From the NCBI GenBank assembly GCA_016219015.1, contig JACRCL010000016.1, positions 1-64,000 on the forward strand: 64,000 nt of DNA. Reading direction: 5' to 3'. Under the pieces are notes generated by a model. It was not told the DNA's origin. It saw only the letters and a list, made by a program, of their open reading frames with translations, and did not search any database. Positions 2,998-29,913 of the stretch are shown piece after piece. The stretch comes from Deltaproteobacteria bacterium (GTDB lineage Bacteria > Desulfobacterota > GWC2-55-46). Position numbers and translations under genes: made by a program. Each line of letters begins with the position of its first letter. Position 1 is the first letter of the stretch.

Positions 2998-3225
2998 TTT
3001 CTGTCATTCTGAGGGAGCGGAGCGACCGAAGAATCTCGTAACTTGCTGATCGTCTACTACGAGATTCTTCGCTACGCTCAGAATGACATGCGGTTATGAA
3101 CACGCATAGCGAGCGCATTCCCCGCTGCTTGCAGCGGGGTCTTAGCGAGCGAATCGAAATTTTTTCCTTATGTGTCGAAGATTCCCCGCAGCTTGCTGCG
3201 GGGAGATTCAATTAATAAGAGGTTC
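2998..3225. repeat. Composite interspersed repeat: inverted 'gtcattctgag...ctcagaatgac' unit followed by a 'ccccgcagcttgctgcgggg' unit (repeat B)
   Basis: Shares long near-identical stretches with 6006-6092 (first unit) and 10050-10170, 21493-21585, 27849-27935 (second unit). Confidence 0.8.
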
Positions 3226-9984: not shown

Positions 9985-10049
9985 CCAAGCGAAAAGCAAA
10001 AGTTTTTTGGAGCGTCCAGACCGGGGCAAGCCCTGCTGTCTGGGCGGGC

Positions 10050-10170
10050 TTTGAATCTCCCCGCAGCAAGCTGCGGGGAATCTTCGACACATAAGGAAGA
10101 TTTCGATTTCGATTCGCTCGCTAAACCCCGCAGCAAGCTGCGGGGAATGCGCTCGCTATGCGTGTTCAAG
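10050..10170. repeat. Repeat B (aatctccccgcagcaagctgcggggaatcttcgacacataagg...cgctatgcgtgttca)
   Basis: Near-identical to 3100-3220, 21493-21585, 27849-27935. Confidence 0.8.
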
Positions 10171-21492: not shown

Positions 21493-21585
21493 AACGCATA
21501 GCGAGCGCATGAGCGAGCGAATCGAAATCGAATCTTTCCTTATGTGTCGAAGATTCCCCGCAGAAAAGCTGCGGGGAGATTCAAC
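21493..21585 (-). repeat. Repeat B copy
   Basis: acgcatagcgagcgcatgagcgagcgaatcgaaatcg...cttatgtgtcgaagattccccgcagaaaagctgcggggagattcaac. Confidence 0.8.
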
Positions 21586-25802: not shown

Positions 25803-25860
25803 CGGGTATTTTTGAAATCTCTTGACGGCCGGAGTTGACTTGATATAAACTCGCTGAATA

Positions 25861-26200
25861 ATCAGGCGGCCTGAGAGGGCCTTAAAAGGGAAGAACGGTG
25901 CGATACCGTCGCGGACCCGCCGCTGTAACCGGGGACGAAAACCGCAAACGCCACTGTCCGATAAACTCGGAATTTTGTTCAGGCTGCTCAAAATCGAGTC
26001 CGCGAGGCGTCGAGAAGCTTAGGAATGAGGCGTACTCTTTTGTACGTCGCAAAGACGAGCGACGAAGACAACAAAGCAGATGGACTTTTTCAGCAGCCTG
26101 CTAAAGGGAAGGCGCGGTGAGTAGACCGATCCGGGAGCCAGAAGACCTGCCTGAAATGCGGGACCCTTAAAAGGGTCTTATCCGCAGAAGACTTCTCGCG
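25861..26200 (+). ncRNA. Cobalamin riboswitch, interrupted by repeat A
   Basis: AAGGGAAGAACGGTGCGATACCGTCGCGGACCCGCCGCTGTAACCGGGGACGAAAACCGCAAACGCCACTG ... GGGAAGGCGCGGTGAGTAGACCGATCCGGGAGCCAGAAGACCTGCCTGA (B12 box); the ~124-nt repeat lies between the halves. Confidence 0.9.
25981..26104 (+). repeat. Repeat A copy 3, inside the cobalamin riboswitch
   Basis: aggctgctcaaaatcgagtccgcgaggcgtcgagaagcttagg...gcagatggactttttcagcagcctgcta. Confidence 0.88.
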
Positions 26201-26272
26201 GTCTGGAAGGTCTTTCCCCGAAGGGCAAAACCCCTTTGGGATAATGCTTGAGGGTCAAGGAAACAGGGTGCA

Positions 26273-26311
26273 ATCCTCAGGGCTTTTAAAGCTCTGAGGA
26301 TTTTTTATTTT
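26273..26311 (+). terminator. Probable riboswitch expression-platform terminator
   Basis: aatcctcagggcttttaaagctctgaggattttttatttt. Confidence 0.8.
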
Positions 26312-26342
26312 GACAGGTTGCTGAAAAACTCAAAATCACGTT

Positions 26343-26470
26343 CAGGCTGCTCAAAAAGTCCCAAGATGCAAGGAGTCGAAAAATGAGGAATGAGACGTAC
26401 TCATCTCGTACGTCGCAATGACGAATTTTGAAGACGACACAGCAGATTGGGCTTTTTCAGCAGCCTGCTA
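26343..26470 (+). repeat. Repeat A copy 4
   Basis: caggctgctcaaaaagtcccaagatgcaagg...gggctttttcagcagcctgcta. Confidence 0.85.
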
Positions 26471-26480
26471 AGGGGGATTT

Positions 26481-27782
26481 ATGACTCAGGTCGAATCCGC
26501 AAGGAAGGGCATCATAACAAAAGAGATGGAGGAGGTCGCCCGGAGCGAGAACGCGAGCGCCGACCGCATAAGGGAACTGATAGCCGAAGGCAAGATAGTG
26601 ATCCCGAACAACATTAACAGGAAGGCGAGGATCGTAGGGATAGGCAAGGGGCTCCGGACAAAGGTCAACGCGAGCATAGGGACATCTTCCGATATCGTCG
26701 ACCTGAAGGCCGAGGTCGAGAAGGCAAAAGCCGCCGAGGATGCAGGGGCAGATACACTTATGGAGCTTTCCGTGGGGGGGGACCTGGACACCATCCGCAA
26801 GGAGGTCCTGCGGTCAACGGGCCTTACCGTGGGCAGCGTGCCGCTCTACCAGGCCTTCAAGGAGGCGATAGAAAAGTACCATGACCCGAACAAACTTACC
26901 GAAGAGCTTCTCTTCGACGTATTGGAGAGGCAGTGCGCGGACGGCATCTCCTTCATGGCCGTCCACTGCGGGATAAACAGGCTTACGATAGAAAGGCTCA
27001 ACAGGCAGGGCTACCGTTACGGAGGGCTGGTCTCAAGGGGAGGCTCCTACATGGTGGGGTGGATGCTCAAGAACAACAGGGAAAACCCCCTGTACGAAAA
27101 TTTCGACCGCGTCGTTTCGATACTCAAAAAGTACGACTGCGTCTTAAGCCTCGGAAATGGCCTGCGCGCCGGGGCCGTGCACGACAGCCTGGACAGGGCC
27201 CAGGTACAGGAGCTCCTCATAAACTGCGAGCTTGCGGAGGCGGGGCTGGAGATGGGGTGCCAGATGATGTGCGAGGGGCCGGGACACCTGCCCCTTGACG
27301 ACATAGAGGCAAATGTGAAGCTCCAGAAGAGGATGAGCAACGACGCCCCTTTCTATGTGCTCGGCCCGCTTACGACCGACATAGCCGCGGGCTATGACCA
27401 CATCTCGGCGGCGATCGGGGCAGCCGAGGCCGCGAGGTACGGGGCGGACCTCATCTGTTACGTGACCCCGGCCGAGCACCTTGCCCTCCCTGACAGGGAC
27501 GACGTGGTCGAAGGCGTAAGGGCGGCAAGGATAGCGGCGCACGCGGGGGATATGGTAAAGCTCGGCAGGAAAGAGCGGGACATGGCGATGTCGAAGGCGC
27601 GGAGGGACTTGAAGTGGGAGGACCAGTACAGGCTGGGCCTATTTGGAGAGCGGGCGTCCGAGATAAGGGCCAGCCGCGCCCCTGAGGAGCCCGCGACCTG
27701 CACGATGTGCGGGAGCTTCTGCGCCCTCGAAAACGTCGGTTCGTATTTCAAGGAGAGCCTCAAGAACGGCGGCAAATCCTGA
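26481..27782 (+). CDS. bzaF: ThiC-family radical SAM enzyme, probably 5-hydroxybenzimidazole synthase (BzaF) rather than thiamin-pathway ThiC
   Basis: 433 aa short-form ThiC homolog (NRKARIVGIGKGLRTKVNASIGTSSD, CEGPGHLPLDDIEANV, C-terminal CTMCGSFC); located behind a cobalamin, not TPP, riboswitch. Confidence 0.75.
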   Translation: MTQVESARKGIITKEMEEVARSENASADRIRELIAEGKIVIPNNINRKARIVGIGKGLRTKVNASIGTSSDIVDLKAEVEKAKAAEDAGADTLMELSVGGDLDTIRKEVLRSTGLTVGSVPLYQAFKEAIEKYHDPNKLTEELLFDVLERQCADGISFMAVHCGINRLTIERLNRQGYRYGGLVSRGGSYMVGWMLKNNRENPLYENFDRVVSILKKYDCVLSLGNGLRAGAVHDSLDRAQVQELLINCELAEAGLEMGCQMMCEGPGHLPLDDIEANVKLQKRMSNDAPFYVLGPLTTDIAAGYDHISAAIGAAEAARYGADLICYVTPAEHLALPDRDDVVEGVRAARIAAHAGDMVKLGRKERDMAMSKARRDLKWEDQYRLGLFGERASEIRASRAPEEPATCTMCGSFCALENVGSYFKESLKNGGKS

Positions 27783-27848
27783 ATCGACTACTGGTGTCTG
27801 CTGAAAAACAGAACCTGGAAGGCCACAAGAGGGGCCTTCCAGGTTATT

Positions 27849-27935
27849 AATCTCCCCGCAGCAAGCAGCGGGGAATCTTCGACACATTAGGAAAAAAATT
27901 CGATTCGCTCGTTCATGCACCGCTATGTGTGTTCA
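27849..27935 (+). repeat. Repeat B copy
   Basis: aatctccccgcagcaagcagcggggaatcttcgacacattagg...gctatgtgtgttca. Confidence 0.75.
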
Positions 27936-28682: not shown

Positions 28683-28693
28683 AAGATCATATT

Positions 28694-28820
28694 CAGGCTG
28701 CTCAAAAAGCTCCAGATGCGAGGCGTCGAGAAGCGAGGAATGAGGCGTACTTTTTCTGTACGCTGCAATGACGAGCGACGAAGACAACGAAGCAGATGGA
28801 CTTTTTCAGCAGCCTGCTAA
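28694..28820 (+). repeat. Repeat A copy 5
   Basis: aggctgctcaaaaagctccagatgcgaggcgtcgagaagcgagg...gcagatggactttttcagcagcctgcta. Confidence 0.87.
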
Positions 28821-29774
<954 letters not shown>

Positions 29775-29794
29775 CAGAAACCCTGAATTTGCTT

Positions 29795-29913
29795 AGGCTG
29801 CTCAAAATCGAGTCCGCGAGGCGTTGAGGAAGCGAGGAATGAGACGTACTCACCTTGCGTTATGACAAGACGATGACAACAAAGCAGATGGACTTTTTCA
29901 GCAGCCTGCTAAA
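29795..29913 (+). repeat. Repeat A copy 6 (diverged centre)
   Basis: aggctgctcaaaatcgagtccgcgaggcgttgagg...gcagatggactttttcagcagcctgcta. Confidence 0.83.

Follow-up and report, generated by a model that had tools for sequence, protein, structure and literature searches.

Cobalamin riboswitches of the terminator-controlled, kissing-loop type (Rfam RF00174) share a core, a B12 box, an L13-type hairpin, a terminator and a B12-related gene. The riboswitch described here, from a 64,000-nt stretch of the genome of an uncultured deltaproteobacterium (the window), is like them in all of these. It differs in that 150 nt of dispersed repeat stand where the innermost P6-extension stem would have its distal part.

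Several described systems come close to this arrangement. In the pneumococcal trp operon, a BOX repeat separates two T-box riboswitches with no apparent loss of function (PMC3049150). That leader, like ours, holds a small dispersed repeat next to switches that appear to be still working, but BOX sits between two aptamers whereas the window repeat sits inside one (PMC3049150). The Chunjie MITE of Geobacter uraniireducens, as cited in PMC10969869, is a small non-coding multicopy repeat inserted in an operon. By this brief description, and not by sequence, it is comparable to the window repeat: both are small, non-coding, present in many copies, found in a deltaproteobacterium and inserted in a transcribed region, although Chunjie lies in an operon and the window repeat in a regulatory RNA. 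The same review of prokaryotic MITEs only speculates about riboswitch effects (PMC10969869). The metE B12 riboswitch of M. tuberculosis has a uORF within its P9-P10 extension (PMC11260477). There too the peripheral P6-extension carries extra sequence, and B12 sensing remains; the extra element in metE is a translated uORF, whereas in the window it is a repeat insertion. In the open-licence literature searched, we came across no dispersed repeat described within a riboswitch aptamer, the nearest precedent being BOX and the T-boxes.

Our preferred reading, to which we give a probability of about 75%, is that the window carries an intact cobalamin riboswitch with a MITE-like repeat as a tolerated side arm in the innermost P6-extension stem. 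A non-autonomous MITE-like repeat has inserted in the innermost stem of the peripheral P6-extension domain, and its RNA would fold on itself during transcription, hanging off the GCC/GGC stem. The B12-binding junction, the kissing loop and the choice between terminator and antiterminator would operate as before, and B12 would still switch the probable BzaF gene off. The insert may be tolerated because this arm can vary freely in length and because a sequence that folds on itself stays out of the core.

Layout of the leader and its gene

The RF00174 match spans 25846-26168, covers all 189 model positions and scores 88.2 bits (E 2e-20; cmscan, Rfam), against a gathering score of 31.5 bits. The alignment leaves 150 nt (25956-26105) unaligned as a local end between CCACU, which ends at 25955, and GGGAAGGC, which starts at 26106. 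Both riboswitch halves and the repeat thus lie where the original prediction placed them, and its proposal that the insertion falls in a variable peripheral stem between conserved blocks is borne out by the alignment. Features of the leader are collected in Table 1.

Table 1. Features of the leader and its target gene (window coordinates)
Feature	Position	Strand	Basis
Sigma-70-like promoter match, TTGACT-16-AATAAT	25835..25862	+	Consensus match only, 10/12; overlaps aptamer start from just upstream
Cobalamin aptamer 5' part, ending ...GCCACU	25846..25955	+	cmscan RF00174 alignment
Inserted interspersed repeat, 150 nt, MITE-like, in innermost P6-extension stem	25956..26105	+	Rfam local end; repeat matches; orthologs without it
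Junction hairpin TCCGATAAACTCGGA at left end of insert, mostly repeat sequence	25957..25971	+	MFE folds; repeat match from 25958/25960
Repeat left inner arm CAGGCTGCT	25980..25988	+	Sequence; alignment of copies and fold
Repeat right arm AGCAGCCTG, complementary to left inner arm	26092..26100	+	Sequence; alignment of copies and fold
Cobalamin aptamer 3' part, GGGAAGGC..., with B12 box AGCCAGAAGACCTGCC	26106..26168	+	cmscan RF00174 alignment
Hairpin with loop CTTCTCGCGG, probable kissing-loop partner (L13)	26189..26213	+	Loop kept in relatives; role inferred
Probable antiterminator segment CTTGAGGGT...CAGGGTGCAATCCTC	26247..26278	+	CAGGGTGCAATCCTC identical in relatives; pairing inferred
Intrinsic terminator, 14-bp stem and T tract	26272..26311	+	Stem kept via paired changes in relatives
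Second, long-form copy of inserted repeat	26312..26471	+	Between terminator and start codon
ThiC-family gene, probably BzaF (5-hydroxybenzimidazole synthase)	26481..27782	+	NCBIfam; second ThiC paralog; operon context in relatives

From the known architecture of B12 riboswitches, the hairpin with loop CTTCTCGCGG is the probable kissing-loop partner (L13). Judged by its sequence, the leader as a whole (25846-26480) is an ordinary terminator-type, kissing-loop cobalamin riboswitch ahead of a probable BzaF gene.

The protein encoded by this gene matched the ThiC models above cut-off (NCBIfam); it scored 550 bits against BzaB (TIGR04386), the listed model for the B12 lower ligand, under the 700-bit cut-off of that model. 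The host genome has a second ThiC homolog (G000:C8:83766, 52% identical), and nearly all relatives searched also have two. At five loci in relatives (L121, L123, L125, L127 and L131), the gene has no riboswitch of its own and directly follows the end of a cobyrinate-diamide-synthase-like ORF, as read by eye. BzaF forms the lower ligand of B12 anaerobically (bza pathway). The cobalamin riboswitch and the cobyrinate-diamide-synthase-like neighbour in relatives point to this enzyme and, together with the ThiC paralogy, make the gene probably BzaF.

The inserted repeat and its empty site in relatives

The host genome is a 2.24 Mb draft of 33 contigs. The repeat is short (~125-160 nt), non-coding, multicopy and dispersed, with at least 7 copies in the window and at least 42 matches genome-wide at E<=1e-3 (40 candidates scored). 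Its terminal arm CAGGYTGCTGAAAAA, allowing at most one mismatch, occurs 149+136 = 285 times in the 2.24-Mb genome, and the reversed control 0 times; this abundance is far beyond chance. Three of four other genomes searched have the same repeat, one of the same genus and two from other genera of the family.

Long copies start with TAACAGGTTGCTGAAAAA and end with TTTTTCAGCAGCCTGTTA, which form terminal inverted repeats, with inverted terminal arms TAACAGGTTGCTGAAAAACTC at the start and GACTTTTTCAGCAGCCTGTTA at the end. By eye, no clear target-site duplication was found at the long copies. Aligned copies (n=31) have a common predicted hairpin of 26 pairs, three of them with changes on both sides; most outer pairs never vary and so say little. 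Given the terminal inverted repeats and the empty site in relatives, the repeat appears to be a non-autonomous, MITE-like element.

In the window insert, the left inner arm CAGGCTGCT and the right arm AGCAGCCTG are exact inverted complements, and the left outer arm is eroded or truncated. All or part of the segment from 25958/25960 to 25979 (GATAAACTCGGAATTTTGTT) aligns with the 5' extension found in five long copies, and none of 500 shuffles matched as well. The left edge of the insertion therefore lies at about 25956-25960, and the insertion is essentially all repeat. The original prediction had given the repeat as 25981-26104 (124 bp, left edge uncertain by ~20 nt); its presence stands, and the left edge shifts to ~25958-25960, for an insert of ~150 nt. 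We had considered TCCGATAAACTCGGA as a leftover riboswitch stem and dropped this, as the aligned copies show repeat from ~25958/25960 onward. Across the left junction (25957-25980), a weak terminator-like pattern arises within the aptamer, a 5-pair stem followed by ATTTTGTT.

Three repeat copies (26312-26471, 28692-28821 and 29788-29913) have the same orientation and end 10-20 nt ahead of a start codon, so that three genes have the repeat right next to their ribosome-binding site. The window also holds a second dispersed palindromic repeat family (CTCCCCGCAGCAAGCTGCGGGGAATCTTCGACACATAAGGAA), at 3097-3211, 10047-10168, 21512-21563 and 27842-27924.

Seven genomes have an uninterrupted orthologous riboswitch (aptamer 176-202 nt), with 84-88% identity in the downstream orthologous protein. 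An eighth relative (G006, locus L116) likewise has an uninterrupted riboswitch ahead of the orthologous gene. Comparison with the orthologous locus, a check proposed with the original prediction, thus finds the riboswitch in eight relatives, all without the insert, which makes the insertion lineage-specific. One same-genus genome (G001) has a BzaF orthologue with no detected riboswitch and so stands outside this comparison. At the insertion point, relatives have CCACTGGGG...CCCCGGGAAGG or a similar sequence in the arm; the repeat takes the place of the distal part of this stem in the window. At L066/L118 and L064/L116, the interval from terminator to start codon, which in the window is occupied by the second repeat copy, holds other dispersed-repeat-like sequences.

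Conservation and predicted folding of the interrupted riboswitch

Strongly conserved positions, counted as upper-case consensus positions in the RF00174 alignments, are kept at 58/64 in the window, 56-59/66 in the uninterrupted orthologs and 62/66 in the same-genome paralog. Four of the six window deviations are common to the orthologs, which also have the single change in the B12 box AGCCAGAAGACCTGCC. In the expression platform, CAGGGTGCAATCCTC is identical in the window and seven aligned relatives, the CTTCTCGCGG loop is kept in six of the seven (the exception is L078), and the terminator stem is maintained through paired changes.

Alleles match in the stems flanking the insert, with CCG:CGG in the window, L064, L067 and the paralog L002, and CCA:TGG in L063, L066, L068 and L074. 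The pairing was judged by eye, MAFFT having misplaced GGGAAGG in the joined-flank alignment. Matched alleles argue against both decay of the riboswitch and an assembly artefact. An artefact would be a chimera in which unrelated contig ends were joined via an abundant repeat copy, and a draft of 33 contigs with hundreds of repeat arms offers occasion for one. We consider it highly improbable: the 5' and 3' parts add up to a single riboswitch whose stems match across the insert, its platform and gene follow downstream as expected, and a chimera would presuppose that another riboswitch had been broken at the identical position.

Decay is the more serious alternative, though an unlikely one. The insertion could have killed or weakened a riboswitch that is now decaying, leaving the gene constitutive or otherwise regulated. 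Against RF00174, the window riboswitch scores below both other cobalamin riboswitches of the host genome (88.2 vs 106.3 and 122.5 bits), which would fit decay, and it also falls below the uninterrupted orthologs (98-122 bits). The lower score should partly be an insert penalty. The weak terminator-like pattern at the left junction and the presence of a second repeat copy in the same leader also speak for decay. Against it, the core, the kissing-loop hairpin and the terminator are conserved as in the uninterrupted orthologs, and the stems across the insert are matched. Moreover, the closest copies elsewhere in the genome are ~8% divergent from the insert, which is thus probably not a very recent arrival, and still no core position stands out as uniquely damaged.

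We compared predicted folds with and without the insert; such folds leave aside ligand, tertiary contacts and co-transcriptional order. Minimum free energies were -105.7 kcal/mol for the intact aptamer, -55.5 for the aptamer without insert and -50.0 for the insert alone, with the same core helices. The first value is about the sum of the other two, so the insert is predicted to fold mainly on itself, and its fold is stronger than those of shuffles (z -2.69). The original prediction of an extra hairpin arm holds as far as self-folding goes (MFE -50 kcal/mol) and fails as a pure extension, the distal part of the stem having been replaced. Its expectation of an intact core agrees with the models: consensus core pairs have a mean probability of 0.408 both with and without the insert, whereas dinucleotide-shuffled inserts disturb the core (0.293 +/- 0.052), only 2/100 reaching the native value. 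When the real insert was tried at every position, the actual site ranked 53rd of 173; thermodynamics thus gives the insertion site no special standing.

In the equilibrium fold predicted for the whole leader, the insert pairs with the downstream copy, with ~30 expected pairs between the insert and sequence outside it. This would suit a repeat that has become a functional element of the switch, for example by pairing with the same-orientation copy beyond the terminator or through altered pausing during folding. We regard such recruitment as very unlikely. The second copy is transcribed only after the terminator decision, so we give copy-copy pairing little weight; the arrangement is kept in no relative, and copies are dispersed genome-wide. 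On conservation and predicted folding, the riboswitch looks functional after the insertion, as our reading of a tolerated side arm would have it.

Other interrupted cobalamin riboswitches

A survey of 61 genomes gave 140 RF00174 matches, 79 in the host's family (30 genomes) and 61 outside it (summed by hand). Only three of the 140 exceed 300 nt, although searches with Rfam models may miss much longer insertions. All three are in the host's family: the window riboswitch (323 nt) and one each in genomes G029 (326 nt) and G023 (390 nt). The next longest match, also in the host's family, is 261 nt, and none of the 61 matches outside the family exceeds 250 nt.

In both G029 (L103:3196-3330) and G023 (L104:1920-2110), the insert lies in the P4 loop and is another dispersed repeat, with 17 matches in G029 and 32 in G023, respectively. 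The G023 riboswitch is insert-free in two same-genus genomes, with downstream flanks 88-89% identical. On the evidence of these loci, repeats have inserted into variable arms of cobalamin riboswitches on at least three occasions in this family, involving three repeat families and two arms. A mobile-like element inside an aptamer, described as unusual in the original prediction, is not unique, G029 and G023 being interrupted as well.

The G029 repeat family also turns up at other loci. The repeat between terminator and ATG at L118 belongs to the same family as the G029 P4 insert (match G011:C16:22433-22561). In one uninterrupted ortholog, the 5' end (L078:2664-2710; GGAAAAAGCAATTTTTAGAGCCAACC) looks like the right-hand end of the G029 repeat, and another repeat may thus have overwritten the outer stems of this riboswitch.

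Natural insertions show which riboswitch arms can accommodate large added domains: in the window it is the tip of the innermost P6-extension stem, and two relatives have theirs in the P4 loop. Such arms may be of use to riboswitch design and to finding interrupted riboswitches that scans may miss. Dispersed repeats have entered a regulatory RNA repeatedly, with no evident loss of its conserved core.
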